The position numbers and the translations under genes were made by a program. From a virus: a stretch of 47,003 nt of DNA. Location of the stretch: positions 1 to 47,003 of IMG/VR virus record IMGVR_UViG_3300042474_000227. One strand, given 5' to 3'. The notes beneath the pieces were generated by a model, which did no database searches, was not told the origin of the DNA, and saw nothing but the letters and a program-made list of their open reading frames with translations. Shown here in pieces: positions 12,601-30,150 of this stretch (positions are counted from its first letter, which is position 1; each line of letters opens with the position of its first letter).

Positions 12601-15600
12601 AGCATCATTTGCACAGGTTGCTGGAACTGCTAATAGTCTTGTTGGATTTGATTCTGCATCATTATCCGCATTAGGTGATTTACAAAACTTTGTAAGAAAT
12701 TCACAAACATCATCAATGGCGGTGTTTAGTGCAGTAAGTTCTTCTTACGCATTAACCGCATCATACGCATTAAACGCAGGTGTAGGTAGTGGTACTGAAT
12801 TATTTATATATCAAACAAGTTCATTAGTAAAAGCACAAGTAGGAAAAATTCATTTTACTGGTTCTGGTGTTGATGTAATATCATCTGGTTCGGATGGTGT
12901 ATTGGTAACGATATTAGGTGGTGGTGGTGGAGTAACATCATTAACCGCATCGTATGTTGCATCATCTGATGTTGATGGGCCTTTGGGAATGGATAGTATA
13001 ACCTTTGCAAGAACTGCATCTTATGCATTATTTGCATTAAATACTCCATCATCTGATACATCATCATTCTTACAAATTAACACAGACCAAACAATAAACG
13101 CATCACTTACAATTAGTGGTAGCTTGGGTGTTACTGGTAGTAGTTTTTTAACTGGACCGGTTATAGCAAATAGTTCTATACAATTAAATAACTTACCAAC
13201 AGGTTCATCGGAAGAAGTTGTAATTTGGAATAGTGTAACAAAACGATTAGAAAGAAGAAATATAGCAGCAGCAGTTGGTTCTTCTGGTACAGGTGGTAGT
13301 AGTGGTACTACTGGTTCATCTGGTTCATCTGGAAGTAGTGGAACTTCTGGAACATCTGGTTCATCTGGTTCATCTGGAAGTAGCGGAACATCTGGTACTT
13401 CTGGTTTAGATGGTACATCAGGAACTTCTGGTTCATCTGGTACATCTGGAAGTAGCGGAACATCTGGTACATCCGGTTCATCTGGAACTTCTGGCACATC
13501 TGGAAGTAGTGGTACATCGGGAACATCTGGTTCATCTGGTACGTCTGGAACATCTGGTTCTTCTGGTACATCTGGAAGTTCTGGTTCATCTGGAACGTCT
13601 GGTACAAGTGGTAGTAGTGGAACTTCGGGAACATCTGGAACATCTGGGTCAACTGGTTCATCTGGAACATCTGGGTCATCTGGTACATCGGGTTCTTCTG
13701 GAACATCTGGTACATCCGGTTCTTCTGGTACATCAGGTACATCAGGATCATCTGGTTCATCGGGAACATCTGGTACATCTGGAACTTCTGGTTCAGCTGG
13801 TTCGTCTGGTACATCTGGAACTTCTGGTTCTACGGGTTCATCTGGTAGTAGCGGTTCGTCTGGAACTTCTGGTACATCTGGAACGTCTGGTTCATCCGGC
13901 TCTGCTGGTAGTGGTGGTTCTGCTGGTTCTTCTGGTTCAAGTGGTTCTGGTGGTACTACTGGTACAGGTGGTAGTGGTGGTTCATCTGGTACATCGGGAA
14001 CTTCTGGAACATCTGGAACTTCTGGTACTAGTGGTACAAGCGGTAGTAGTGGTACATCTGGTTCGGATGGACAATCTGGTACATCTGGTACATCTGGTAC
14101 GTCTGGAGAAGATGGCACATCTGGTAGTAGTGGAACTTCAGGAACTTCTGGTTCAACTGGTTCAGCTGGTTCTTCTGGTACGTCTGGTATAGATGGAACT
14201 TCTGGTACATCGGGAACTTCTGGTTCAGCTGGTTCATCTGGAACTTCTGGTACATCTGGTTCTACTGGTTCATCTGGAACTTCTGGCACATCCGGAACTT
14301 CTGGTTCGGCTGGTTCATCTGGTTCATCTGGAACTTCAGGAACATCTGGTACTGATGGTTCTGCTGGTACAACGGGTTCATCTGGAACTTCGGGAACATC
14401 TGGCACAAGCGGAAGTGGTGGTACATCGGGAACTTCTGGAAGTAGTGGTACTTCGGGAACATCTGGTACTGATGGTTCTGCTGGTACAACGGGTTCTTCT
14501 GGAACATCTGGAACTTCTGGTACATCGGGAACTTCTGGAACTAATGGAACTTCTGGTTCAGCAGGTTCTTCTGGAACATCTGGTACTGATGGTTCTGCTG
14601 GTACAACGGGTTCATTTGGAACTTCTGGTTCTTCTGGAACTTCCGGAACTAATGGTTCATCGGGAACATCTGGTACGGACGGAACATCTGGAACGAGTGG
14701 AACATCTGGAACTGATGGCTCGGCAGGTACATCTGGTTCATCGGGAACTTCTGGAACATCTGGAACTAATGGTACATCTGGAACATCTGGCTCAGCAGGT
14801 TCTGCGGGTTCGTCTGGTTCAGCAGGTTCGTCTGGTTCTACTGGTTCATCTGGAACTTCTGGTACAAGCGGTACATCTGGTTTAGATGGTACATACTTCG
14901 GTTCATCCGGAACATCGGGAACATCTGGTACAAGCGGTACATCTGGAACAAGCGGTACATCTGGTACATCTGGTACATCTGGTGTTGATGGCACATTTAA
15001 TGGTAGTAGTGGAACGTCTGGAACATCAGGAACATCGGGTACATCGGGAACTTCTGGTTCTAATGGTACGGCTGGTTCATCTGGAACATCTGGAACATCT
15101 GGACAAGATGGTACATTATTTGGTAGTAGTGGAACAAGTGGTATATCTGGTACGTCTGGAACTTCAGGTACTTCGGGAACTTCTGGAAGTAGTGGAACGT
15201 CTGGCACATCTGGTGTTGATGGTACATTTAATGGAAGTAGTGGAACGTCTGGAACATCAGGAACATCTGGCTCAGCTGGTTCGGCTGGAACTTCTGGCAC
15301 ATCGGGTTCATCTGGAACATCTGGAACATCTGGACAAGATGGAACTTTATTTGGTAGTAGTGGTACAAGCGGACAAAGTGGAACATCTGGTTCAGCTGGT
15401 TCATCGGGAACGTCTGGAGCGTCTGGTACTAACGGCTCTGCTGGAACGTCTGGAACATCTGGTTTAGACGGAACTTTATTTGGTAGTAGTGGTACATCTG
15501 GAACATCTGGGACATCGGGAACTTCTGGTTCAAGTGGTACATCAGGAACATCTGGTACATCTGGACAGGATGGTACATTATTTGGAAGTAGTGGTACAAG

Positions 15601-16921
15601 CGGAGAAAGTGGTTCATCTGGGTCATCTGGCTCAGCTGGTTCATCTGGAAGTGGAGGTTCGTCTGGAACATCTGGAACATCAGGTACTTCCGGATTAAAT
15701 GGTACATTCTTTGGAAGTAGTGGAACTTCTGGTTCTTCTGGAACATCAGGTACATCTGGTTCGACGGGTTCATCTGGAACATCGGGTAGCGGTGGTTCTT
15801 CTGGTAGTGGTGGTTCATCTGGTACATCGGGAACTTCTGGTCTTAATGGAACTTTCTTTGGTAGTAGTGGTACATCTGGTACATCGGGAACTTCTGGAGT
15901 AAGTGGTAGTAGCGGTACATCAGGAACAACCGGTTCAGCAGGTACAACAGGTTCATCTGGTACAACGGGTTCATCTGGTGTTAATGGTACAATGTTTGGA
16001 AGTAGTGGTACAAGCGGAACGTCTGGTGTTTCTGGTTCAAGTGGTGTAAGTGGTTCATCTGGAGTAAGCGGTTCGTCTGGTACAACGGGTTCATCGGGAA
16101 CATCTGGCGTAAATGGTACAATGTTTGGAAGTAGTGGTACTTCGGGAACTTCTGGTACAGGTATATCTGGTACATCTGGTACATCGGGTGTAACTCCTCC
16201 TGGTATGACTTCGGGAACATCTGGACAAGATGGAACTTTATTTGGTAGTAGTGGTACATCTGGGAATAGTGGAACTTCTGGTACAACACCTCCTGGTATG
16301 ACTTCGGGAACATCTGGATTGGATGGTACATTATTTGGAACATCTGGTACATCTGGGCTAGCTGGTACATCTGGTACAACGCCAGCAGGTATGACATCTG
16401 GAACGTCTGGTACATCTCAATTCCCAATAGCTGGAAATACTGATAATGGTTTATTAACATATGATGTAGCAACTGTTGGAGCAAACGTAGAAGCTAATAT
16501 TACATTTAATGGTTCTACTTTAACAATCATAGGAAGTACAACTCAAACTGGCGATGTAAATGTAACAGGAGCAGTAACAGCAACTACATATGTAGGTTCA
16601 ACAACATTTAGAGAAACATTTAGTGATTTGGGAGCTGGTGGTAGTGCTACTTTAGACCTATCAACCGCTAATAACTTTAGAAGACAATTCAATGCAACCG
16701 CAACAGTAACATTTAGTAATCCACCAGCATCAAACGCATTTGGATTTACTTTAGTAGCTGTAAATGCTGGAGCATATGCAATAACATGGCCGGCATCGGT
16801 AGATTGGGCTGGTGGAACTGCCCCAATATTAACTGGAGCTGGTGTAGATGTTTTGGTATTCTATACTTATAATGGTGGAACTACATACTACGGATTTGTA
16901 ACGGGTAAAAATTTAAGTTAA
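6662..16921 (+). CDS. Giant collagen-like tail fibre with cupredoxin-like domains
   Basis: 3419 residues. Residues ~1-1830 contain 22 copies of a beta module with consensus SGSVTASVSPN-GF-V, usually followed by GSQFTGSLFVSG and by FSGSGAGLFNIPRSAL. Two inserted domains (residues ~502-610 and ~1110-1225) have a cupredoxin look, with ligand sets H548/C594/H597/M600 and H1160/C1206/H1209/M1212. Residues ~2205-3252 are an almost unbroken Gly-X-Y repeat (SGT, SGS). The last ~165 residues form a beta-rich tip domain with TYVGSTTFRETFSD and a VDWAGGTAP segment. The protein has the layout of a very long trimeric fibre: shaft, collagen-like rod, tip. It is expected at the tail or baseplate, binding host surface or moderating attachment. 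The motif at residues ~138-165 (VIYSSGSNIFGDAENDKQEF) is nearly repeated in the second giant fibre. Its function as a fibre is inferred from composition and position. Confidence 0.8.
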   Translation: MAISNLLTGRVRVVSPKNVTADRYQFIDLSQVEPNLGVPDFSASLLTNPALVVSDSDGNRGFARTISLDQISGSFSGSFQGDGSNLTGVKADVSPQISSGSATASISPDRGLQINVDTTILGNLYVSQSIIADQLIVNIISSSVIYSSGSNIFGDAENDKQEFTGSVQIQSELIVNTVTGSSFSGSFTGSFFGDGRNLFNLPEATKLASGSVTASVSPNTGFVVTSIASGSTFTGSLFVSGNVVIPSGSGFFSGSGAGLFNIPLSALNIESLVSNRIASGSATASISPNRGLVVNTTITASMYSGSGKGLFDIPISALSQEVFRIASGSVTASASPNFGFRVQSSTVGSQITGSLFVTGNIELGVGAYYSGSGEKLFNIPRSALTPDALVATLIGSGSVTASTSPDFGFRVESFQSGSQFTGSLFVSGARGIEIVSGSSFSGSGARLFDIPVSALRDLDLTRIRSGSATASISPNNGLEVNIFSSFTGSMIVSASVKYLPSQSIQTVFNVTNTGVNFYTFSGAAEGNNPTLTLVRGITYTFNLNASGHPFYIKTAPGTGTGNQYTTGVTNNGDDVGVITFAVPANAPSMLYYQCQLHSAMVGTINIVDAIVQRDSGVLIYGDEVISGSLNVKDVVRAREFTGSISSSFIQGDGSGLYNIPRSAFTGDSFRIASGSVTASVSPIVGFKVETSVTGSEIGSQFTGSVAVSGSVTASFFIGDGSRLINITVPPQVATRITTGSITASVDINRGFRVEATTIGSEFTGSIRVSGSVEISSGSSFSGSGARLFDIPRTALTPDALLTTFIASGSVTASVSPNVGFDVKSSLLGSRFSGSIFANNGIRLMSGSFSGSGRELFDIPVAALSDLDTSKIFSGSATASVSPNRGFEVFTATSRFYGSVSASVFSGSGAGLTNIPFSALSQELFRIVSGSVTASVSPEDGFKVVSTLSGSQFTGSLFVTGGFIRVATGSFFSGSGAGLLNIPRSALNDDALTATEIKSGSVTASVSPNFGFRVQSQISGSEFTGSVSISGSLEIIATSGSLILASSSAYYGEGTYLRNIPRSALTPDALLSTLIASGSVTASVAPNTGFVVNSYSTISGSLIVSSSARAMPNSDIDTVFIVTNEGSGLYNISNKLVSGSNPTLTLVRNVEYTFNVNASGHPFWIKETPGTGTGNSYDYWVTNNGEDTGVITFLVSGSAPDTLYYNCQLHLSMAGTIDVVDALYVPAEITLIGDTKVVGVVTASVFSGSGKGLFDIPRSALSEEVFRIASGSVSASVSPDFGFRVESFESGSDFSGSIRIDSSSFLYAVGTYLRQIPRAALTEDALISAEIKSGSVTASVSPDYGFRVITPFTSSIDENGYFTTQIGSQFTGSIDVSGSLFINDVSGGVYIASSSFLYSDGTYLRNIPRSALTEDALVSTEIKSGSVTASVSPDYGFRVITDKTGSQVAAQITGSVDISGSLTVKDFIFGDGRFITNVQAAAAPFIGSGSATASVADGERFVVTTAKTGSEIGSEFTGSVEISGSLIVSNFLIGDGTFITNVVAAASPKIASGSVTASVSPNFGFKVETQATGSGIGSQFTGSISVSGSIQAFTYFGDGSNLTNVAAAAAPRIASGSVTASVAPNTGLLVNSYVNISQTVPSSSAGLIVSGAVYISGSITASRYDGDGGGLFNIPASALKDLQLDKIQSGSARAIIDPTKLDVNVPITAALYIGDGGGLFNIPANALEDLQLDRIKSGSVEAVISPNLGLVVNTKASISQSLAVSGGLFVTGGNIILNGSGSTFVGDGSGLYNITIANLAFETSIMKSGSFTASISPDKGFVVNTSASIWGNLYVGDNLRATTITGSTQIYSPIVSGGLLGTYTYQGNGPTASAEYDILRFDENRGHYIPQPETSLTETVSFNNVSSLTIVHNLGIRYPMVQVYATGSEDQILPGTIKSIDDDTIQIVFSGLTSGHVVIGSGGSLISGTIEGGRVIGTVLSASFAQVAGTANSLVGFDSASLSALGDLQNFVRNSQTSSMAVFSAVSSSYALTASYALNAGVGSGTELFIYQTSSLVKAQVGKIHFTGSGVDVISSGSDGVLVTILGGGGGVTSLTASYVASSDVDGPLGMDSITFARTASYALFALNTPSSDTSSFLQINTDQTINASLTISGSLGVTGSSFLTGPVIANSSIQLNNLPTGSSEEVVIWNSVTKRLERRNIAAAVGSSGTGGSSGTTGSSGSSGSSGTSGTSGSSGSSGSSGTSGTSGLDGTSGTSGSSGTSGSSGTSGTSGSSGTSGTSGSSGTSGTSGSSGTSGTSGSSGTSGSSGSSGTSGTSGSSGTSGTSGTSGSTGSSGTSGSSGTSGSSGTSGTSGSSGTSGTSGSSGSSGTSGTSGTSGSAGSSGTSGTSGSTGSSGSSGSSGTSGTSGTSGSSGSAGSGGSAGSSGSSGSGGTTGTGGSGGSSGTSGTSGTSGTSGTSGTSGSSGTSGSDGQSGTSGTSGTSGEDGTSGSSGTSGTSGSTGSAGSSGTSGIDGTSGTSGTSGSAGSSGTSGTSGSTGSSGTSGTSGTSGSAGSSGSSGTSGTSGTDGSAGTTGSSGTSGTSGTSGSGGTSGTSGSSGTSGTSGTDGSAGTTGSSGTSGTSGTSGTSGTNGTSGSAGSSGTSGTDGSAGTTGSFGTSGSSGTSGTNGSSGTSGTDGTSGTSGTSGTDGSAGTSGSSGTSGTSGTNGTSGTSGSAGSAGSSGSAGSSGSTGSSGTSGTSGTSGLDGTYFGSSGTSGTSGTSGTSGTSGTSGTSGTSGVDGTFNGSSGTSGTSGTSGTSGTSGSNGTAGSSGTSGTSGQDGTLFGSSGTSGISGTSGTSGTSGTSGSSGTSGTSGVDGTFNGSSGTSGTSGTSGSAGSAGTSGTSGSSGTSGTSGQDGTLFGSSGTSGQSGTSGSAGSSGTSGASGTNGSAGTSGTSGLDGTLFGSSGTSGTSGTSGTSGSSGTSGTSGTSGQDGTLFGSSGTSGESGSSGSSGSAGSSGSGGSSGTSGTSGTSGLNGTFFGSSGTSGSSGTSGTSGSTGSSGTSGSGGSSGSGGSSGTSGTSGLNGTFFGSSGTSGTSGTSGVSGSSGTSGTTGSAGTTGSSGTTGSSGVNGTMFGSSGTSGTSGVSGSSGVSGSSGVSGSSGTTGSSGTSGVNGTMFGSSGTSGTSGTGISGTSGTSGVTPPGMTSGTSGQDGTLFGSSGTSGNSGTSGTTPPGMTSGTSGLDGTLFGTSGTSGLAGTSGTTPAGMTSGTSGTSQFPIAGNTDNGLLTYDVATVGANVEANITFNGSTLTIIGSTTQTGDVNVTGAVTATTYVGSTTFRETFSDLGAGGSATLDLSTANNFRRQFNATATVTFSNPPASNAFGFTLVAVNAGAYAITWPASVDWAGGTAPILTGAGVDVLVFYTYNGGTTYYGFVTGKNLS
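6950..12130 (+). repeat. 22 beta modules (SGSVTASVSPN-GF) in fibre shaft
   Basis: Twenty-two copies of a short signature, SGS[AV]TAS[VI]SP-x-x-G[FL]-V, are spaced unevenly through the shaft, most followed by an NIPRSAL or NVAAAA turn. The most divergent copies are 8 (TTGSITASVDINRGFRV), 17 (SVADGERFVV) and 20 (SARAIIDPTKLDV). A 23rd copy lies at the start of the second giant fibre (about 19225). Two neighbouring copies (about 10650-10700 and 10930-10980) are nearly identical, which suggests a recent duplication. Confidence 0.8.
13276..16416 (+). repeat. Gly-X-Y (collagen-like) repeat coding region, ~1045 residues
   Basis: A 9-base unit encodes GTS/GSS triplets with glycine at every third residue. 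Proline is almost absent, so the geometry is collagen-like but there is no Pro/hydroxyproline stabilisation. Synonymous codons are freely mixed (gga/ggt, aca/act/acg, tct/tca/agt), so the copies are held at protein level. From ~14880 on, 13 interruptions of the form [LVQ]-[DN]-G-T-x-[FN]-G insert one extra residue and shift the glycine phase. Three T-P-[PA]-G-M-T-S-G breaks lie near the end. Confidence 0.9.
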
Positions 16922-18954: not shown

Positions 18955-21900
18955 ATGCAGAATTTAGGTAATAATCCTAATGGTTTAAATCAACTAAGCG
19001 CAAGTTTAGTTTCTTTGTTTGTAAGTGGAAGTAGAATAGCTAACTTTTCATCTGCATCTGGAATTCAGATTGATAAGGTTGGTACATTTTCCAATACAAC
19101 ACTTGAAATAACGGCTAATACAAAAATTAGTGGTTCTATTACCGCATCATTGTTTAATGGTGATGGTAGTGGATTGTTTAATATTAATGCCGCAGCAATT
19201 GGTGATTTAGATAGGATAAAGTCAGGTTCAGCAACAGCAATAATTTCTCCAAATAAAGGTTTAGTAGTAAATACCGATTTAACAGTAGCAGGTACAATAA
19301 ATGCAACCGAATTAAAAGTAACTTATATATCATCATCAATAATCTACGCAAGTGGTTCATCTAAATTTGGTGATGCACAAAATGATAAGCAAGAATTTAC
19401 TGGTAGTGTAAATATAACTGGTTCATTATTTTTTGGAACAGGTTCTTTAAGGCAAGATATAACAACTGAAGAAGTTTTAGTTTATAATGTAACAACTGGT
19501 AGGATTGGCATTAAAACTTCAGCAGCATCATCTGGAACATCTGGAACTTCTGGAACTTCTGGAACTTCTGGTACATCTGGCACTTCAGGAACTTCTGGCA
19601 CTTCAGGAACTTCTGGCACTTCAGGAACTTCTGGAAGTAGTGGTACGAGTGGTTCTTCTGGTACAAGCGGTACATCAGGAACTTCTGGCACATCTGGAAC
19701 TTCAGGAACTTCTGGAACATCTGGCACATCTGGTACAAGCGGTACATCAGGAACATCTGGAACTAGAGGTACATCAGGAACTTCTGGCACATCGGGAACT
19801 TCTGGAACATCTGGCACATCGGGAACATCTGGTGTGAGTGGTTCATCTGGAACATCTGGGTCATCTGGAACTTCTGGTACATCTGGAACTTCTGGAAGTA
19901 GTGGTACATCGGGAACATCTGGAACATCTGGATTAACAGGTACAAGTGGTACATCCGGATTGACAGGGACATCTGGAACATCGGGATTAAGTGGAACGAA
20001 TGGTACATCGGGAACTTCTGGAATAAGTGGAACGGCAGGTACATCAGGTACATCAGGAACATCTGGTACATCTGGTACAAGTGGTGTAACCGGTGCGGGT
20101 GGTGCAGGAGGTACATCTGGAACTTCTGGTTCTTCTGGAACATCTGGGTCTTCAGGAACATCTGGTACATCAGGCACATCAGGAACATCTGGAACATCGG
20201 GAATTAGTGGAGCTGGTGGTGTGAGTGGTACGGCTGGAACTTCTGGTACAAGCGGTACATCTGGCACATCGGGTACATCTGGGACATCTGGAACGCGTGG
20301 TACATCGGGAACTTCTGGAACATCTGGAGTAAGTGGTACGGGTGGTTCTTCTGGGACTTCAGGTACATCTGGAACATCTGGAATCAATGGAAGTAGTGGA
20401 ACAAGTGGTACATCTGGCACATCTGGAACATCGGGTACATCTGGAACATCTGGCACAAGTGGTACATCTGGTATAGGTAGTAGTGGTACATCGGGTACAT
20501 CTGGAACATCAGGAACAAGAGGTACATCCGGAACGTCAGGTACATCGGGAATAAATGGTAGTAGCGGTACATCTGGCACATCTGGAATAAATGGTAGTAG
20601 CGGTACATCTGGCACAAGTGGAACATCTGGCACAAGTGGCACATCTGGAATTAGTGGAAGTTCGGGAACATCTGGCACATCAGGTACATCGGGAACTTCT
20701 GGTACTTCTGGAACATCGGGAACATCTGGGATATCAGGAACATCTGGAACTTCTGGAACATCAGGTACATCCGGTACACGTGGAACTTCTGGAACATCGG
20801 GAACTTCTGGTACAAGTGGAACATCAGGCACATCGGGAAGCAGTGGAACTTCAGGAACTTCTGGTACATCCGGAACATCTGGTACATCTGGGGTTAATGG
20901 TAGTGATGGAACATCTGGCACATCAGGAACTTCTGGAACATCTGGCACATCGGGAACATCTGGAACTAGAGGTACATCCGGAACTTCTGGCACATCGGGA
21001 ACTTCTGGAACATCTGGCACATCCGGAACAAGAGGTACATCTGGGACATCAGGAACATCAGGTACATCTGGAACATCAGGAACTTCTGGAACATCTGGTT
21101 CATCAGGAACTTCTGGATTATTATCATTAACTGGTACAACTGATAATGGTGTAATCACATTAAACGGAACTGCACCAAATGCAACCGTTGAAGCAAATTT
21201 AAGATTCGATGGTACTACATTGGCAGTAACTGGTAACGCTACAATTAGTGGTGACCTTACTGTAAGTGGTACAACAACATATATTAATACAACAACTTTA
21301 AATGTAGGTGATAATATCATCACATTAAATGCAGATATTGGAGCATCAACCGCACCAACTGAAAATGCTGGTATAGAAGTTAAGAGAGGTAATGCAGCAA
21401 CAAAAGCATTTTATTGGGAAGAAGCAAATGATAGATGGTATGCTGAAGATGGATTGTATGTAGCTGGTAACGTAGTTCTTAGTGGAACTGTTGATACGGG
21501 ACAAGGTGCAACTGAAGTTTACTTAATGAATCAGAATGTTCGTACAACCGATTCGGTAACATTTGCAAACGTAACTTCAAACTTAACTGGTACTGCTGAT
21601 AGAGCAGAAGCTGTTGATTCAAATGATACTAGAAATGTAAACGATACTCCTTCAAGTAAAAATGCTGGAGTTTATTTTGATTTTAAAACAAATAGTGTAA
21701 ACGGATTAAGTGATGGTGGTACATATAACGGACAAATGTTTTGGCGAAGTTATGGTAGTAGTACTGATTTAAGTGGAGGATATCCAATACAAATAGCATA
21801 TACTGCAAATGGTAGAATATGGAGTAGATTGGGAACATCATCATCAGCATGGGCTTCTTGGCAACAAATATTAAATAGTGTTGACCAAATTTACGCTTAT

Positions 21901-24900
21901 AATATGAATCAGTATGTAAGAACTACTGATGCACCTACATTTGCTGGATTAAATTCAACTGATACTATAACGGTTAAGAGTAATGGTACTCCATCTGGTG
22001 TAAGAGCATTTAACGCAGATTCTGTTCTTAGACTTCAAAATACAAATAGTAATAACTATTTAGAATTTAGAAATCAAGCTGATACTGGAACTTATGGTGG
22101 TATTTTATTTACTGATAATAATGTTGGAGGTTATATCGCATTTAGAACATATGTAGGTAGTGGAGCTAACAATGGAACAAACGGAGATTATATGATATAT
22201 GGTACTTACACAGACCATATATTCCAAGCCGGCAGTTCTGAAACAGTAAATGGAAAGAGTGAAATATTTAGAATGTATGCTAATGGTGATGTAAGAGCAC
22301 AAGGTGGTATGTATGCAACTATATATTACGATTCCGCTGATACTACATATAGATTTAACGGAGATGGTTCATCTGTTTTAAATGAATTAACTACATTTGG
22401 TTCTACAACTATTAGAAACAATTATAATACAGGTCAAAATTTAAAACTCAATCTAAACGATTCTGGTGCATATGGTTTAGTTGATTTCCAAGAGAATGGT
22501 TCACATAAAGGATTTTTTGGATTGGGTGGAACTACACAATCATTTGGTACATATGCAGCATATACCGCTGATGGATTTAGCTGGAATCATGATGGTACTG
22601 GTAAAATAATTATTGCCAATAGAGGTACATCAAAACGAATTGATTTAAACACTGGTGCGGAGGGTAGTACCAATTTTACAACAATAAGAATGACGAATCA
22701 GAATGTGTATATAACACCTGATTCAAATACTGGTACTTTAGATGCACCTATATTTAGAGAATTAACAAGTACTGGATATTATTTAGACCCATCAAGTACT
22801 GGTACTTCATTAAATACGGCGGGTTCTATACGAGGTTCGTATTATGTAGCAAGTAATTATACCAGCACCGGATACACTCAATATAAAGGCTATGACAATA
22901 ATAACCATTTTATAATGATTAGAGGTAGGGTAACTGGCAACACAACATCTCCTACTTATACTGGTTATCATAGAACATCATTAGTAGAATACGCTGAAGG
23001 AAATGATGATACTGGATGGTTTTTTCAAACTGCGGCTACTGGTAATTATGATATTGTAGCTAGAATAACACGTTCATATTCTCAATTTGAATCAAGCCTT
23101 AGAGCACCTATATTTTATGATTCCGATAATACTGGTTTTAGAATAGACCCTACGGATTATTCATATGTAAGATATTTTAAAGTTAGAAGTAGTGGAAGTT
23201 CTTCTGGAACTAGAGCATTGACGGTACATGATGAATCTCAAGGTGAAATAAACTTTGGTACTTATCCTGGTGCTTGGACTTCCGCAGTTCAAATCCAATC
23301 TAATAACAACGCCACTTACATGTGGATGTCACCATTGACTGGATATAATGGTAGATTTTATATGGCTGGTGCTGGATTGGACATATATACTGAAGGCAAC
23401 GGATTGTCTGGACAATTTTACAATGGACAATTTAGAACTGGATTTATTTACGATTTCAATGATACGGGTACATACTTAGACCCTAATGGATTTAGTAATT
23501 TATATAATAGTGGTTTAGTTGCAACATTTACAAAATTAAGTACATCTCCAAATAGTAGAGCAGTTCAATTTGCAAATAATCAGGGTGATAACTCTTGGGG
23601 TATTGTTGGTGAATTTAGAGTTAATGGTTCTCCTGGTACGGATAGACCATCAATCTTATTCTCTAATGGATTTGATAGTAATACTTGGTCTTGTGGATTT
23701 GGTTACGCAGATTCTTCTTATTTTAGAATTAATCACGACCACGGCCATAGAAATGGTTCTTGGGGTACTACGGATTTCTATGTTGATAGAGGTGGTAACT
23801 CATATTCAAATGGTAGTTCTAGAGCACCAATATTTTATGACCAAAATGATACTGGTAGATATATGGACCCAACCGGTCAATCGTATATTGTTAATTTATG
23901 CGTTGGTACAAATAACTATAATCACGGATATCCTGGCGTACTTCAAATTGGTAGTACATCATACAACTATAACTTTAATAATGGTAGTTGGGCGGGTAGT
24001 ATTACAACTGGTATATTAGCAAACTGTGCAGATGAATGGGAGTTTTCAATACATGATAGTGGAACTTCGGTTGAATCTGTATTCATATACTCTGGTGGAA
24101 GAATATTAATGGGCAGAAGTATTGGTTGGGGTACAACTTATATAGAAGCAGCTGAATCGTTCAGAGCACCTATATTCTACGATTCCAACGATACCGGATA
24201 TTACACAAACCCCAATGGATATTCACAAATGTCAGCTGTATGGGCAAACAACTGGTTTAGACCTCAAGGATGTTGTGGATTGTATTTTGAATCATATGGA
24301 CAGGGTATTTGGAGTGTATTTTGTGAGGGTAGTCCTTATGGTCACACATCAACTTATGGTGGTGGTAGAAATGGATGGTATGGATACGCTATTAGTAGTA
24401 GATACTGTTTTATGAGTACAACGGGTGATAACTGTGGTGTACATGATACTGCTAGAGGTTGGATTTGGTATATGAGTGGAGCCGAACTAAACCTTTATTG
24501 GGCTGGAAACCGTAGAATTGTAACTACTAGTTGGGGTTCTTATTACGATGGATATACGGAAGTAGGTGGTTCTTCAAGAGCCCCAATATTCTACGATTCA
24601 AACGATACGGGATATTATTTAGACCAAAATACAACTTCAAATGATGCATTAAGAATTAGAGGTGGTGCGTTACATGGACCTAACCCATCTTGGGGAGCAT
24701 ATTTTAGAAGTGGATGTAATGGTAGAGTAGATGGTTGGGCATCCGTTGAAACAACCAATGGTAACCTACATATGGATTGTAGAGATGGATATGAAACTTA
24801 TATCAATCACTATAATGGTAATAGAACTTATTTGTATGAAATAAGAACAAACTTTATTTATGATAGAGATAATACTGGATATTATTCTGACCCGAATGGT

Positions 24901-25362
24901 ACATCTCGTATAAACTATGCTATACATGATAACGTTTATTCATATAGCTGGATTTTCTCTCAAAATAACATCATCGCTTATTACTCAGATGAAAGATTGA
25001 AAACTAATTTAGGACCAATTGAAAATCCATTAGATAAAGTGAATCAACTTAATGGATTCTACTATATTGAAAATGATTTAGCACGTTCATTTGGATATAC
25101 GGATGAGAAAGTTCAAGTGGGTTTATCAGCTCAGCAAGTTCAAGCAGTATTACCGCAAGTTGTAACTCTAGCTCCGTTTGATATGGATATAGATAACGAA
25201 ACTAAAGAGATTAAAGGTTCTAAAACTGGTGAAAACTATTTGACTGTTGATTACGAAAAGATAGTACCTCTATTAGTAGAAGCTATAAAAGAACTTAGTG
25301 AGGACTTAAATAAAACAAAAGCTGAAGTTAAGGAATTACGAAAATTGATAGAAGAAAAATAA
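18955..25362 (+). CDS. Second giant collagen-like fibre ending in S74 self-cleaving chaperone
   Basis: 2135 residues. The N-terminus (1-190) repeats shaft modules of the 3419-aa fibre, including SIIYASGSSKFGDAQNDKQEF. Residues ~193-721 are a Gly-X-Y repeat. Then follow beta segments (NVGDNIITLNADIG; residues ~770-860), a knob-like part with GYPIQIAYTANGRIWSR (~930-980), and seven or eight APIFYDSNDTGYYLDPNG repeats (~1120-1990). The C-terminus is a peptidase S74 intramolecular chaperone: SDERLKTN (S2011, K2016), then GLSAQQVQAVLPQ and TVDYEKIVPLLVEAIKEL with a coiled-coil tail. In this family the chaperone trimerises the fibre and cuts itself off at the serine, here leaving ~125 residues free. 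This is probably the main receptor-binding fibre. The S74 assignment is strong. Confidence 0.85.
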   Translation: MQNLGNNPNGLNQLSASLVSLFVSGSRIANFSSASGIQIDKVGTFSNTTLEITANTKISGSITASLFNGDGSGLFNINAAAIGDLDRIKSGSATAIISPNKGLVVNTDLTVAGTINATELKVTYISSSIIYASGSSKFGDAQNDKQEFTGSVNITGSLFFGTGSLRQDITTEEVLVYNVTTGRIGIKTSAASSGTSGTSGTSGTSGTSGTSGTSGTSGTSGTSGTSGSSGTSGSSGTSGTSGTSGTSGTSGTSGTSGTSGTSGTSGTSGTRGTSGTSGTSGTSGTSGTSGTSGVSGSSGTSGSSGTSGTSGTSGSSGTSGTSGTSGLTGTSGTSGLTGTSGTSGLSGTNGTSGTSGISGTAGTSGTSGTSGTSGTSGVTGAGGAGGTSGTSGSSGTSGSSGTSGTSGTSGTSGTSGISGAGGVSGTAGTSGTSGTSGTSGTSGTSGTRGTSGTSGTSGVSGTGGSSGTSGTSGTSGINGSSGTSGTSGTSGTSGTSGTSGTSGTSGIGSSGTSGTSGTSGTRGTSGTSGTSGINGSSGTSGTSGINGSSGTSGTSGTSGTSGTSGISGSSGTSGTSGTSGTSGTSGTSGTSGISGTSGTSGTSGTSGTRGTSGTSGTSGTSGTSGTSGSSGTSGTSGTSGTSGTSGVNGSDGTSGTSGTSGTSGTSGTSGTRGTSGTSGTSGTSGTSGTSGTRGTSGTSGTSGTSGTSGTSGTSGSSGTSGLLSLTGTTDNGVITLNGTAPNATVEANLRFDGTTLAVTGNATISGDLTVSGTTTYINTTTLNVGDNIITLNADIGASTAPTENAGIEVKRGNAATKAFYWEEANDRWYAEDGLYVAGNVVLSGTVDTGQGATEVYLMNQNVRTTDSVTFANVTSNLTGTADRAEAVDSNDTRNVNDTPSSKNAGVYFDFKTNSVNGLSDGGTYNGQMFWRSYGSSTDLSGGYPIQIAYTANGRIWSRLGTSSSAWASWQQILNSVDQIYAYNMNQYVRTTDAPTFAGLNSTDTITVKSNGTPSGVRAFNADSVLRLQNTNSNNYLEFRNQADTGTYGGILFTDNNVGGYIAFRTYVGSGANNGTNGDYMIYGTYTDHIFQAGSSETVNGKSEIFRMYANGDVRAQGGMYATIYYDSADTTYRFNGDGSSVLNELTTFGSTTIRNNYNTGQNLKLNLNDSGAYGLVDFQENGSHKGFFGLGGTTQSFGTYAAYTADGFSWNHDGTGKIIIANRGTSKRIDLNTGAEGSTNFTTIRMTNQNVYITPDSNTGTLDAPIFRELTSTGYYLDPSSTGTSLNTAGSIRGSYYVASNYTSTGYTQYKGYDNNNHFIMIRGRVTGNTTSPTYTGYHRTSLVEYAEGNDDTGWFFQTAATGNYDIVARITRSYSQFESSLRAPIFYDSDNTGFRIDPTDYSYVRYFKVRSSGSSSGTRALTVHDESQGEINFGTYPGAWTSAVQIQSNNNATYMWMSPLTGYNGRFYMAGAGLDIYTEGNGLSGQFYNGQFRTGFIYDFNDTGTYLDPNGFSNLYNSGLVATFTKLSTSPNSRAVQFANNQGDNSWGIVGEFRVNGSPGTDRPSILFSNGFDSNTWSCGFGYADSSYFRINHDHGHRNGSWGTTDFYVDRGGNSYSNGSSRAPIFYDQNDTGRYMDPTGQSYIVNLCVGTNNYNHGYPGVLQIGSTSYNYNFNNGSWAGSITTGILANCADEWEFSIHDSGTSVESVFIYSGGRILMGRSIGWGTTYIEAAESFRAPIFYDSNDTGYYTNPNGYSQMSAVWANNWFRPQGCCGLYFESYGQGIWSVFCEGSPYGHTSTYGGGRNGWYGYAISSRYCFMSTTGDNCGVHDTARGWIWYMSGAELNLYWAGNRRIVTTSWGSYYDGYTEVGGSSRAPIFYDSNDTGYYLDQNTTSNDALRIRGGALHGPNPSWGAYFRSGCNGRVDGWASVETTNGNLHMDCRDGYETYINHYNGNRTYLYEIRTNFIYDRDNTGYYSDPNGTSRINYAIHDNVYSYSWIFSQNNIIAYYSDERLKTNLGPIENPLDKVNQLNGFYYIENDLARSFGYTDEKVQVGLSAQQVQAVLPQVVTLAPFDMDIDNETKEIKGSKTGENYLTVDYEKIVPLLVEAIKELSEDLNKTKAEVKELRKLIEEK
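19531..21117 (+). repeat. Gly-X-Y repeat coding region, ~529 residues
   Basis: The same GTS triplet rod as in the first fibre, but more uniform. Variation is limited to substitutions such as GTR, GIN, GLT, GVS and GIS that keep the glycine phase. The one-residue DGT-x-[FN]-G interruptions of the first fibre are absent, except for a single GIGSSG break near 20470. Confidence 0.88.
22740..24910 (+). repeat. FYD-N-DTGYY-DPNG tandem fibre repeats
   Basis: Seven clear copies of [AF]-x-I-[FY]-Y-D-x-[ND]-[ND]-T-G-x-Y-x-[DN]-P within the second giant fibre, spaced roughly 250-500 bases apart, plus a diverged one near 22330 (YYDSADTTYRF). The stretches between them are variable, rich in aromatic residues, Gly and Cys, and probably carry the binding surfaces. 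Confidence 0.8.
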
Positions 25363-25940: not shown

Positions 25941-28262
25941 ATGGCAGAAAGAATCGTATCACCTGGCGTATTCACAAGAGAAAATGACCTTTCCTTCCTA
26001 GCGCAAGGAATTGGTGAAATTGGGGCAGCATTTATAGGACCTTTTAAACAAGGACCTGCATTCATCCCAACTATTGTGAGAACTCAATCAGAATTCGAAG
26101 AAATATTCGGAACACCTGATGGAACTTATTATACTGAATATGCAGTACAAAACTATTTAAGAGAAGCTGGTACAGCAACAATCGTAAGGGTTGGTGGTAT
26201 CGGTGGTTATGAGCAGATAGCACCTTTAGCAATATTTGCATCTGGTTCATCCCTTCAATCAGTAGGCACTAAATTAATTGGTGTATTACATTCAACTAAA
26301 TTAGGTGATGAGAAAGTTGGATTTGCAGGAGCAACTGTAGCAAGTGATAGTGTTAATGATGGTTCATTCTTAGCATTGCATGCAGATTTAAATGTATCAG
26401 CATCTATCTTACCATCTTCTGTAAACGATTTATCAGATGTATTTGGTGAATCTCCATTTGGAGCTAAAAAAGCATACGCATATTCTTACTTTGAAAGTGC
26501 AGCTGGATACTATACTGGTTCTGCTGGAAACAACATTGTAATAACTTCTGTTGTATTACCTCCACAGGACTTTACTTACGATGCACAAGCAGCTGAAACT
26601 CCAATGGTTAAATCTCAATTGATTAGTGGTGAAAGATATGATTTATTTAAGTTCGTAACAACTGGACATGGTACAACATATAATACTAAATTTAAAGTTG
26701 GTATTTCAAATGTAAAGGCAGCTGGTGAAGATGGTGGAACTGATTACTCAACATTTACTGTAACGATTCGTTCATTTGATGATACTGATAAGAGAAAGAG
26801 TGTTGTAGAAACATTTAATAATGTAAACTTAGACCCTGCTTCTCCAAACTATATAGCTAGAAGAATTGGTGATAGATATTTTACAATTGATAACAATGGT
26901 AAACTTACTGAATTTGGTGATTATACAAATCAATCAAAATATGTCAGAGTAGTAGTATCTACTCCTGGCTCATTCCCAATATCAGCAGCACCATTCGGAC
27001 ATGGAGCATATACAAACCCAATTACAGCAACAAATAACGCTGAATCACTTTTAGTACCAGCGGTAGTATATCAAACAAACTCAGCAAATAATACATCATC
27101 ATCTCCAATCTATTATAGTGGATTTGATTTTGAAACTACTGGTGTTAAGTTAGATAACTTACAATATTTGAAACCACTTCCAATAGGAGCTCAAACTGGT
27201 TCTAACGTATCTTTTGCATTTGATGCAAATGGTTTAACGTATCAAATGACCGGTTCTGCATCTACTGATATGGTTAAGAGACAATTCGTATTAGCATTCC
27301 AAGATGGATTTGATGGTATGAACCCAACTACAACAATAGCTAAAGCTGGTGATACTGATTGGAGTAATGCAAATACGCAAGGATTCAATTGTGCAACATC
27401 TGTATCTTCTGGTTCAGTAGCATACAATAAAGCACTTAACGCAATTTCAAATCCTGATGAGTATGATATCAATATGTTAGTAACTCCTGGTATTGTAAGA
27501 GGATTACACCCAGCAATTACTACTAAAGCAATTGATATTTGTGAGGAAAGACAAGACGCATTTTATATCGCTGATTTCAACGATTTTGATGATACAATAA
27601 CTGAGGCAACTGAAGCAGCTAACGCAGTTGATACAAACTACGCAGCAACTTACTACCCTTGGGTTAAGACAATAGATACTAATACAAACAAATTAGTAAC
27701 TGTACCACCTTCAGTACTATTACCAGCAGTATTTGCTAGTAACGATAGATTAGCAGCAGAATGGTTCGCACCTGCTGGTTTGAATAGAGGTGGTATTACT
27801 GGAGCAGTTTCAGTATTGAATAGATTAACACATGCGGAGAGAGATACTCTATATGAGAACAAAGTAAACCCAATCGCAGCATTCCCTGGACAAGGTATTG
27901 TAGCATTTGGACAGAAGACATTGCAAGATAAAGCATCAGCATTAGATAGAATCAACGTAAGAAGATTACTTATCACTGTTAAGAAGTTTATCGCATCTAC
28001 TTCTCGTTTCTTAGTGTTCGAACAAAATACTACTCAAACTAGAGCAAGATTCATTAACACAGCAACTCCATACTTAGAGAGCATACAACAAAGACAAGGT
28101 TTGTACGCATTCAAAGTTGTAATGGATGAAAGTAACAACACACCTGATGTTATTGATAGAAACATATTAGCTGGACAAATTTTCTTACAACCTGCTAAGA
28201 CGGCTGAATTCATCGTAATTGATTTCAACATCTTACCAACTGGAGCAAGTTTCTCAGCATAA
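25941..28262 (+). CDS. gp18: Tail sheath protein (T4 gp18-like)
   Basis: 773 residues, longer than T4 gp18 (about 660). The N-terminus (residues 1-90: SPGVFTRENDLSFLAQG, then AAFIGPFKQGPAFIPTIV, FGTPDGTYYTEYAVQNYLREAGTATIVRVGG) is the classical sheath start. The C-terminal ~200 residues carry the conserved core: LNRLTHAERDTLYENKVNPI, FGQKTL, DRINVRRLLITVKKFI, FEQNT-TRARF and a final FIVIDFNILPTGA. It polymerises around the tail tube and contracts during injection. The middle domain, which varies among phages and lies on the outside, accounts for the extra length. It has its own promoter motif and A-rich leader and is followed by the tube gene. Very confident. Confidence 0.95.
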   Translation: MAERIVSPGVFTRENDLSFLAQGIGEIGAAFIGPFKQGPAFIPTIVRTQSEFEEIFGTPDGTYYTEYAVQNYLREAGTATIVRVGGIGGYEQIAPLAIFASGSSLQSVGTKLIGVLHSTKLGDEKVGFAGATVASDSVNDGSFLALHADLNVSASILPSSVNDLSDVFGESPFGAKKAYAYSYFESAAGYYTGSAGNNIVITSVVLPPQDFTYDAQAAETPMVKSQLISGERYDLFKFVTTGHGTTYNTKFKVGISNVKAAGEDGGTDYSTFTVTIRSFDDTDKRKSVVETFNNVNLDPASPNYIARRIGDRYFTIDNNGKLTEFGDYTNQSKYVRVVVSTPGSFPISAAPFGHGAYTNPITATNNAESLLVPAVVYQTNSANNTSSSPIYYSGFDFETTGVKLDNLQYLKPLPIGAQTGSNVSFAFDANGLTYQMTGSASTDMVKRQFVLAFQDGFDGMNPTTTIAKAGDTDWSNANTQGFNCATSVSSGSVAYNKALNAISNPDEYDINMLVTPGIVRGLHPAITTKAIDICEERQDAFYIADFNDFDDTITEATEAANAVDTNYAATYYPWVKTIDTNTNKLVTVPPSVLLPAVFASNDRLAAEWFAPAGLNRGGITGAVSVLNRLTHAERDTLYENKVNPIAAFPGQGIVAFGQKTLQDKASALDRINVRRLLITVKKFIASTSRFLVFEQNTTQTRARFINTATPYLESIQQRQGLYAFKVVMDESNNTPDVIDRNILAGQIFLQPAKTAEFIVIDFNILPTGASFSA

Positions 28263-28314: not shown

Positions 28315-28803
28315 ATGGCACAAGTATTAGAATTCAACGATATGTTCTACAAAACCTGGGAACCAAAAACGAAAGCTCGTTTCAAAATGAGTATCGATGG
28401 TGTAGAAGCATATTTGATTAAAGCAGCTAGCAGACCTCAAATTAACTTTGAAGTTGTAACTTTAGACCACATTAACGTGAAAAGAAAGTTGCAAGGTAAA
28501 GGTGAATGGCAGGATATGACTATCACTCTTTATGACCCAATTGTACCATCTGGTGCACAACAAGTAATGGAGTGGGTTCGTTTAGGACACGAATCTATTA
28601 CTGGTAGAAAAGGATATTCTGAATTCTATAAGAAGACTATCAAAATCGAAATGTTAGGACCTGTTGGTGATATTGTTGAAACTTGGACTTTATATGGAGC
28701 ATTTCCATTGCAAGTAAACTTTGGTGAATTAGATATGACATCTAATGACCCAGCATCAATAGAACTACAAGTAGCATATGATTACGCTGTATTAGAATTC
28801 TAA
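28315..28803 (+). CDS. gp19: Tail tube protein (T4 gp19-like)
   Basis: 162 residues, the usual size for a gp19 tube subunit. It starts MAQVLEFNDMFYKTWEPKTKARF and continues with a core typical of the family: FKMSIDGVEAYLIKAASRP, LDHINVKRKLQGKGEWQDMTITLYDP, then WVRLGHESITGRKGYSEFYKK and a final FPLQVNFGELDMTSNDPASIELQVAYDYA. It stacks as rings to form the inner tube. It follows the sheath gene directly, as in T4, and is closed by a good terminator. The A-rich leader AAAAGGAAAAGAAA includes an AGGA that may act as a ribosome site. Confidence 0.95.
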   Translation: MAQVLEFNDMFYKTWEPKTKARFKMSIDGVEAYLIKAASRPQINFEVVTLDHINVKRKLQGKGEWQDMTITLYDPIVPSGAQQVMEWVRLGHESITGRKGYSEFYKKTIKIEMLGPVGDIVETWTLYGAFPLQVNFGELDMTSNDPASIELQVAYDYAVLEF

Positions 28804-28911: not shown

Positions 28912-29673
28912 ATGAATCAAAAACAATATGATTTTCCAACGGAAGTTATTAGTTTACCATCGGAAGGTAAATTATATCCAAAAGAGAACCCATTATCATC
29001 GGGTCAAATAACAATTAAACATATGACCGCAAAGGAAGAGGATATCCTTTCTTCACAAAACCTTATCAAAAAAGGTATTGTATTAGATAAACTATTTGAA
29101 TCGGTTATTGTTGATAATGTTAATATAGATGATATTCTTATAGGTGATAAAAACGCAATTATCTTAGCAACTCGTTTATTAGGATACGGTCCTAAGTATG
29201 AAGCATCTGCATATTCTTCTGTAACGGGAGATGTTATCAATTTATCTGTTGATTTAACAAAAATTGAAACAAAAAAGGTAGATACTTCTAAATTTGAAAA
29301 TAAAAATGAATTTGAATTTATTACTCCAAATAGTAAAAACAAATTAACATTTAAATTATTAACGCATGGTGATGAAAAGGCTATTGATAGAGATATTACC
29401 GCATTAGAAAAGGTTAATAAAGATACTTCGCATGATATTACTACTAGATTTAGACATATGATTAGAGCCGTAGATGGTGATAATAGTATAGGAGCTATTA
29501 ATAAATTCGTAAATGGATTTTTAGCAAGAGATAGTAGAGCATTTAGAGATTACATTAAAACAATTCAGCCGGACATGGATATGAGAATTACATATACACA
29601 TGAAGACGGACAAGAGGAGGTACTGCCCATAGTAATGGGCGTAGGGTTTTTTTGGCCTAGCTCCGAATCATAG
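28912..29673 (+). CDS. gp26: Baseplate/tail assembly protein, T4 gp26-like; zero-frame product
   Basis: 253 residues. The first ~110 carry the signature of the T4 baseplate gp26 family (Pfam T4_baseplate): LPSEGKLYP, then GQITIKHMTAKEEDILSSQNLIKKG, LDKLFESVI, DDILIGDKNAIILATRLLGYG. The C-terminal part has a helical stretch and ends in PIVMGVGFFWPSSES. It lies between tail tube and tape measure, the slot used in most tailed phages for the tail assembly chaperone pair. Its last codons overlap a second open frame at a run of seven T (29647-29653), so a fraction of ribosomes may make a longer product of ~315 residues. Strong for family, moderate for chaperone role. Confidence 0.85.
   Translation: MNQKQYDFPTEVISLPSEGKLYPKENPLSSGQITIKHMTAKEEDILSSQNLIKKGIVLDKLFESVIVDNVNIDDILIGDKNAIILATRLLGYGPKYEASAYSSVTGDVINLSVDLTKIETKKVDTSKFENKNEFEFITPNSKNKLTFKLLTHGDEKAIDRDITALEKVNKDTSHDITTRFRHMIRAVDGDNSIGAINKFVNGFLARDSRAFRDYIKTIQPDMDMRITYTHEDGQEEVLPIVMGVGFFWPSSES
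29644..29655 (+). other. Candidate programmed frameshift site (GGG TTT TTT TGG)
   Basis: In the zero frame the codons are GGG TTT TTT TGG. The +1 (equivalently -2) frame has a TAG at 29642-29644 and is open from 29645, only two bases before the T run. The zero frame stops at 29671. Only the 26 bases 29645-29670 are open in both frames, and the slippery run lies at their start. Slippage by +1 joins ...GVGFF to GLAPNHS...; slippage by -2 would add one more Phe. Confidence 0.7.
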
Positions 29674-29860
29674 TATTCAACTCCATACTCAAATTTTTGA
29701 GATGGTAAACTATGGTAATGGGTTCACTGTAATGGATTTGTATAGAATGCCAACCTATCTTAGAATGTTTTACTACCAACAATTAGTAGATGCTAAGAAA
29801 AAGGAAAATGAGCAAATAAAGCAAGCAAATAATCAATCAAAAGTTAGGGTTAATAGATAA
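29645..29860 (+). CDS. Frameshifted C-terminal extension of gp26-like protein
   Basis: An open frame of 71 codons with no ATG until 29702, in frame +1 relative to the gp26-like gene. Translation reads GLAPNHSIQLHTQIFEMVNY, then FTVMDLYRMPTYLRMFYYQQLVDAKKKE and a Lys/Asn/Gln-rich tail, ending in TAA. The content (helical, with a conserved-looking MPTYLRMFYYQQL segment) is clearly coding-like. If expressed by frameshifting it gives a gp26-T fusion comparable in logic to lambda gpG-gpGT. An alternative is separate initiation at ATG 29702 (52 residues), but no good leader precedes it. Homology of this tail is not known to me. Confidence 0.65.
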   Translation, partial: GFFGLAPNHSIQLHTQIFEMVNYGNGFTVMDLYRMPTYLRMFYYQQLVDAKKKENEQIKQANNQSKVRVNR

Positions 29861-29872
29861 TCCTAACTTTTT
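29839..29872 (+). terminator. Rho-independent terminator after gp26 unit
   Basis: AAAGTTAGG (29840-29848) pairs with CCTAACTTT (29862-29870), with one further A-T pair and a run of T. The stop codon of the frameshifted extension (29858-29860) lies in the loop, so the hairpin is part of the coding end, which supports that the extension is really translated. Confidence 0.75.
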
Positions 29873-29916: not shown

Positions 29917-30150
29917 ATGGGAAAGAAGTATAAAATAAAAAAATCAAATTTAAAGGAGTTTTTTGGTTTATTTTCAAAAAAACCAACTCCGGATAGAATT
30001 CAAAAGTTAATTGATGATGATCCTGAATTGAAAAAAATTCAATCAAAAATAGATGCCTTAAATAAAACTGCCGCTCCTCATATGGAAAAGCTTAAAAAAG
30101 AAGACCCTTCTTTGTATAAAAAATTACAAGATGCGGGGTTTGCACCATAA
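29917..30150 (+). CDS. Small conserved tail-region protein, function unknown
   Basis: 77 residues, very basic at the start (MGKKYKIKKSNLKEFFGLFSKK), then a helical pattern with LIDDDPELKKIQSKIDALNKTAAPHMEKLKKEDPSLYKKLQDAG. Similar small proteins are common next to the tape measure gene of T4-like environmental phages as far as I recall. The two charged helices suggest a small assembly factor or a partner of the tape measure. No known domain. It is 18 bases from the tape-measure-like gene and shares its promoter. Confidence 0.65.
   Translation: MGKKYKIKKSNLKEFFGLFSKKPTPDRIQKLIDDDPELKKIQSKIDALNKTAAPHMEKLKKEDPSLYKKLQDAGFAP

Follow-up and report, generated by a model that had tools for sequence, protein, structure and literature searches.

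The window analysed here is a 47,003 nt stretch of viral DNA (IMG/VR record IMGVR_UViG_3300042474_000227) in which a gene similar to T4 gene 26 ends inside a second open reading frame, and the question is whether the two frames are joined during translation. Comparison with relatives makes it very probable that they are, by a real programmed frameshift through which this T4-like phage would make a short (about 253 aa) and a long (about 315 aa) tail assembly chaperone.

Layout of the putative chaperone locus

The main domain of the gp26-like protein is homologous to the T4-like tail assembly chaperones (gp26/gp51); it matches PF12322 with an E value of 9.8e-5 (22.6 bits, just under the curated cut-off of 24.5) and phrog_150 (baseplate hub) with an E value of 2e-7. 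As a sequence-only reading of this DNA had described, the gene (3′ end ...GGG TTT TTT TGG CCT AGC TCC GAA TCA TAG) finishes inside a frame that opens at 29645, two bases before a run of seven Ts (29647-29653), has no ATG, GTG or TTG for 57 bases from its opening (the first ATG is at 29702), and stops with TAA (29858-29860) in a terminator-like hairpin. This second frame is in +1 phase relative to the gp26-like gene. Six terminator-like sites are present in the 1.5-kb region, where 0.4 are expected. Because a TAG closes the +1 frame immediately before the seven Ts, any shift has to occur 3′ of that codon. The +1 product would be 315 aa long (247 residues up to and including the second UUU, and 68 beyond it), which agrees with the approximately 315 aa that had been predicted. 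The features of the locus are collected in Table 1.

Table 1. Features of the chaperone locus and adjoining tail genes, in window coordinates
Feature	Position	Strand	Basis or remark
Tail sheath	25941-28262		Upstream of the tail tube gene
Tail tube protein (gp19-like)	28315..28803	+	Upstream neighbour of the gp26-like gene; PF06841 E 3e-12; phrog_4542 E 1e-29
gp26-like ORF, short form of the putative tail assembly chaperone (TAC-N), 253 aa	28912..29673	+	
Hairpin	29624..29641	+	Lies 5 nt before the T run; weakly supported candidate stimulator
TAG that closes the +1 frame before the T run	29642..29644	+	Sequence; +1 frame opens this late in 16/75 loci
+1-frame extension (TAC-C), homologous to T4 gp51 C-terminus	29645..29860	+	phrog_634 E 0.024; profile comparisons; codon-position test
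Putative slip site, TTT TTT TGG CCT (0 frame); +1 reading TTT TTT GGC CTA	29647..29658	+	
0-frame stop TAG, end of short form	29671..29673	+	Sequence
ATG, the only one in the tail frame before the tail core	29702..29704	+	Coding constraint starts 5′ of it
Terminator-like hairpin at the tail end, with a T run 3′ of it	29839..29871	+	Contains the +1-frame stop
77-aa ORF between the chaperone and probable tape measure genes	29917-30150		Family not assigned
Probable tape measure protein, 804 aa	30169..32583	+	Position only

The pair also occupies a slot like that of the λ gpG/gpGT chaperones, between tail tube and tape measure, as the same reading had pointed out. The tube gene upstream is recognizable by its profile matches, and the tape measure downstream is assigned by synteny; its ORF has no match in family profile searches and occupies the slot of the annotated tape measure gene in Flavobacterium phage immuto. 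Further points in common with gpG/gpGT are an overlap at the 3′ end of the short gene, a slip site there, a conserved phase and a tail without its own start, such that a 3′-end frameshift would give a rarer long form. The λ shift is −1 on GGGAAAG. The window differs in direction and site, since the shift would be +1 on UUUUUUU and the sequence reads G TTT TTT instead of a canonical −1 heptamer (X XXY YYZ), and the two systems are likened by slot and layout.

Two other observations concern the surrounding genes. Microcystis phage Mel-JY01 has a small ORF in the slot that matches the window's 77-aa ORF, and positions 6662-16921 and 18955-25362 of the window encode two giant proteins of virion type (3419 and 2135 aa). 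Both contain collagen triple-helix repeats, and the 2135-aa protein has a C-terminal S74 chaperone domain.

Conservation of the second frame

A search with the single protein found 47 related IMG/VR loci, and an 11-row alignment found 80 more. A tail profile was used to score the phase in the 129 virus loci whose 3′ end is complete (six come from annotated phage records), and 128 of them have the tail in the +1 frame. The lone exception (L053, in the 595 kb phage LR756511) has a weak tail match in the −1 frame; its short form extends beyond the FFFP motif, and the weak tail match has a possible ATG. Six contigs (L001-L006) that encode a gp26 with 100% identity to the window's have the T run and phase as well, as do many divergent contigs, so the T run and second frame are conserved among homologues, a check that the sequence-only reading had proposed. 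The same layout is found in phages immuto and Mel-JY01 and, more weakly, in SP-15 (Bacillus) and vB_SagM-GXN1 (Streptococcus). Metagenome-assembled genome contigs that hold the junction have the tail in +1 in 7/7 cases, and as these are mostly Flavobacteriales they suggest a Bacteroidota host for the window's phage.

Over about 144 nt from the slip site, the +1 frame is free of stops in all 75 non-redundant loci, and the other two frames contain a stop in 143 of 150 readings. A codon-position test was applied to 29 disjoint locus pairs, over the stretch from the 0-frame stop to the first ATG, GTG or TTG. Substitutions there fall at positions 1, 2 and 3 of the +1 codons 104, 49 and 173 times (p = 4e-16), and changed codons are 114 synonymous and 111 nonsynonymous in the +1 frame, compared to 27/196 and 4/213 in the other two. 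This bears out the earlier description of the tail as coding-like, and +1-frame coding reaches 5′ of the only ATG in the window. In 23 loci there is no ATG, GTG or TTG for at least 75 nt past the 0-frame stop, and one locus (L077) has no start codon within 300 nt of the site.

Two loci depart from this arrangement in an informative way. In L041 and L046 (positions 3766-4388 in both) an endonuclease-like ORF that resembles a GIY-YIG homing endonuclease lies between the short chaperone gene and the tail. The run there has decayed to GAA TTT TTC TTC CCA, where sister loci read GAA TTC TTT TTT CCC. The tail, for its part, has acquired an ATG that overlaps the endonuclease stop codon. The slip site has been lost here, where it would be of no use. 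An independent start for the tail had been named in advance as a finding that would speak against frameshifting; here it is seen only after insertion and loss of the slip site, and so it counts as support for frameshifting. An intron around the endonuclease was considered and rejected, as no Rfam match was found.

The putative slip site

The site was examined in the 75 non-redundant loci (77 sites when SP-15 and GXN1 are included). The first 0-frame codon is TTT in 71 loci and TTC in 4; the second is TTT in 70, CTT in 4 and CTA in 1; the third is TGG, TAC, TAT, TTT or TTC; and the fourth is CCT in 67, CCC in 4 and CCA in 4. When the second codon specifies Phe it is always TTT (70/70 compared to 82% expected, p = 7e-7). 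The preference for CCT at the fourth position (67/75 against a 35% background, p = 9e-23) may come from the +1 Leu codon rather than from slippage. The shift is confined to TTTTTTTGGCCT and about one codon by the loci in which the +1 frame opens latest (L067 and others) and the locus in which the 0 frame stops earliest (L049). The T run is broken in seven sites, where the longest stretch is 3 or 4, and the phase is kept.

No strong stimulatory RNA structure was found near the site in the window (z = −1.45), and the relatives show a weak signal (mean z −0.7 to −0.8 around the site compared to −0.3 in controls). The hairpin upstream of the T run is a weak candidate for a stimulator because its stem derives from Pro and Gly codons.

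Proposed mechanism and its alternatives

The sequence comparisons suggest that most ribosomes would terminate at the TAG at 29671 and release the short gp26-like form, and that some would slip +1 when tRNA-Phe on a UUU of TTT TTT T re-pairs with the overlapping UUU; these would continue in the +1 frame to give the 315-aa long form with its gp51-type tail. If the pair acts as gpG/gpGT do, the tape measure protein would be coated by a large number of short copies and a small number of long ones, which would recruit tail-tube subunits and then depart. The ATG at 29702 could in addition give some free tail besides the long form. The overlap and its phase, the coding character of the tail, the constraint on the site and the homology are observed in the sequences; slippage, its direction, the ratio of the two forms and their chaperone function are inferred from them.

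The same frame would be reached by a −2 shift, and the earlier reading had left the choice between +1 and −2 open while calling the shift programmed. A codon able to re-pair after +1 (UUU/CUU type) is present at 77/77 sites; UUU can re-pair two bases back at 70/77, and the other seven (for example TTT CTT TGG and TTC TTT TAC) keep the tail in the same frame, which favours +1. A further point against −2 is that CUU-U is the classic forward slip of prfB. Given a frameshift, we therefore hold with fair assurance that the direction is +1, most likely at UUU-U/C, and consider it unlikely that the P-site tRNA moves back two bases along the run, the −2 shift documented for phage Mu (PMC5009743). Slippage of RNA polymerase on the run, giving transcripts one T shorter, is suggested by the presence of T7 in most loci, but the seven loci with a broken run keep the phase, and this reading is highly unlikely. 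Seven Ts are also few for polymerase slippage.

A separate small gene translated from the ATG at 29702 and coupled to the upstream stop would be in keeping with the presence of that ATG, with the annotation of such genes in GenBank (immuto 233, SP-15 046 and cyanophage gp51) and with the tail's own start in L041 and L046. It fails as an explanation because coding constraint reaches 5′ of the ATG and many loci have no start in the stretch; moreover, coupling would fix neither the phase in 128/129 loci nor the T run, and the starts in L041 and L046 arose after the insertion, with the slip site lost. A free-standing gene is accordingly hard to credit. Homopolymers are error-prone, and a T missing or added in the window had been named as a possible artefact; both an error of this kind, in sequencing or in assembly, and decay of the gene into a pseudogene are in practice refuted by a phase common to well over 100 independent contigs as well as complete phages (immuto, Mel-JY01 and SP-15) and by constraint on both frames. 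A +1 ribosomal frameshift is thus the explanation that we carry forward.

Relationship to T4 genes 26 and 51 and to the −1 phages

Frameshifting is reportedly conserved in several T4-like groups, and T4 itself is said to use genes 26 and 51. Vladimirov, Gautam and Davidson 2022 (Virology 566:9-15; pmid 34826709) are reported to have named the T4-like tail chaperone genes, with T4 gp26 as TAC-N, gp51 as TAC-NC and other groups having frameshifted forms. The sequence-only reading had put forward a link between T4 gp26 and the chaperone family as possibly new; the link holds but cannot be claimed as new, having been published there in 2022, and the reading missed the counterpart of its tail in gp51. 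Some T4-like phages are described as having, in place of a frameshift, one short gene and a second, long one (PMC10885494), and −1 signals on poly-T have been reported from TAC-N genes of this phage group (PMC12846349); the window's branch differs from the first in having one gene and from the second in that its shift would be +1. For T4, both gp26 and gp51 have been classed as chaperones of hub assembly; the particle lacks gp51, although some genetic studies assign gp26 to the hub (PMC3004832).

Both T4 proteins match PF12322 (E values of 9e-64 and 4e-52 for gp26 and gp51), and gp51 consists of a gp26 domain plus a tail. By sequence they are paralogues, and the window's long form would correspond to gp51 and its short form to gp26. 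In phage KP15 (L138) genes 51 and 26 lie in tandem. T4 gp26 (L054) also has a weak match to the gp28 family phrog_1140 (E = 9e-4).

The cyanophages have the same two parts in another phase. In Syn9 (L140:6478-7391) an annotated gp51-like gene of 47 aa with a TTG start lies directly 3′ of gene 26 in the −1 frame, and gene 26 ends GCT TCT TTT TTC GGG TAG, which contains the canonical −1 heptamer T TTT TTC. This heptamer with a −1 tail is present in 79/79 cyanophage-type loci, Syn9 included. A −1 tail after NNT TTT TTN is also found in Aeromonas CC2 and Vibrio VH7D (both Straboviridae), Stenotrophomonas BUCT608, Rhizobium I34, Ochrobactrum OC and Methylophilales Melnitz-1. Since cyanophages, VH7D and CC2 have −1 at T TTT TTC at the aligned position, the annotated "gp51" there would be only the frameshift tail. 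Cyanophage gp51 was found to be only about 20% of the length of T4 gp51 (Sullivan et al. 2010, PMC3037559), a published puzzle that is accounted for if its N-terminal part is supplied by gp26 through the frameshift. Two side observations belong here: GenBank assigns artificial starts to cyanophage "gp51" genes (L140 and L141-L220), and Vibrio phage D493 (L226:1342-2298) has a −1 tail at a site (TCA CTT TTC AAG TAA) with no canonical −1 heptamer.

Profiles of the +1 and −1 long forms align end to end with the slip sites opposite each other (97.7% probability, E = 2.5e-12), and their tails alone match at E = 4e-6. The −1 profile in turn matches T4-type gp51 (99.4%, E = 2.5e-21; tails alone 97.4%, E = 1.6e-11), and reversed controls for these comparisons were negative (under 1%). 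The +1 profile has no direct match to T4 gp51 (0.4% probability), so the link from the window to T4 gp51 runs through the −1 cyanophage forms; with that link and the phrog_634 match in Table 1, the long form would carry a gp51-type C-terminal tail. In a maximum-likelihood tree of the main domain all +1 rows lie on one side of a branch (support 100/99), T4 gp26 and gp51 group with the −1 phages (98/93), and the four labels need three changes, which is the minimum; some branches are long and finer placement is unsure.

AlphaFold2 predicts the short form confidently, with a pLDDT of 89.6 and a pTM of 0.85. In a PDB search with this model the HK97 tail assembly chaperone (2OB9) ranks first, a weak match to the HK97 gp13-type fold that is not significant (E = 0.73, prob 0.51, TM-score 0.47 by target length), and YqbN (3KLU) ranks 27th. 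Matches among predicted viral structures are T4-like baseplate hub proteins, including those of SP-15, VH7D and Rhizobium AF3, and a sequence search found no relevant solved structures.

The base before the T run

In the +1 branch the codon before the run ends in T in 0/75 loci, against 45.7 expected when the same genes are used as background for each amino acid (log10 P = −36). The cyanophage-type −1 set has T there in 79/79, with 49.2 expected (log10 P = −16.5); these P values take loci as independent and so overstate the case. A T at this position would complete a −1 heptamer, and the bias is therefore read as selection on the direction of slippage. The balance tips modestly toward a single homologous slip site that is used in the +1 direction in the window's deep branch and −1 in cyanophages and their relatives, with the flanking base helping to set the direction, and from which the T4 group escaped by duplicating the gene into 26 and 51. 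The T4 group obtains its two proteins from duplicated genes, 26 (short) and 51 (long), and the cyanophages and several others would obtain theirs from one gene by a −1 shift at the aligned place.

Comparison with known frameshifts and significance

Besides λ, several known systems resemble this one in part. The prfB (RF2) gene shares the forward slip of a YUU-U codon, but its post-slip codon is UGA and that of the window's group is a sense codon (UGG, UAC or UAU); no Shine-Dalgarno-type stimulator like that of prfB was identified at the group's site. SPP1 gp17.5/gp17.5* is a tail chaperone frameshift on a T-rich heptamer, with a −1 shift on UUUUUUC (PMC6316719), and the tail chaperone frameshift of Mu is −2.

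Frameshifted tail chaperones are already known in most tailed phages and have been reported in T4-like ones. In the open-access literature searched no account of a +1 group of T4-like chaperones was found, an absence that is weak evidence; the deep +1 branch and the flanking-base rule (never T in +1, always T in the −1 cyanophages) may be new. The findings would extend frameshifted tail chaperones to a large, mostly uncultured T4-like branch (Flavobacteriales-type and others), in which the shift would be opposite to that reported for its relatives. They also open the way to a clean test of how slip direction is set by the single base that precedes the run. Many of the genes annotated in the chaperone-tail slot would be artefacts, and should be joined to the short gene upstream.
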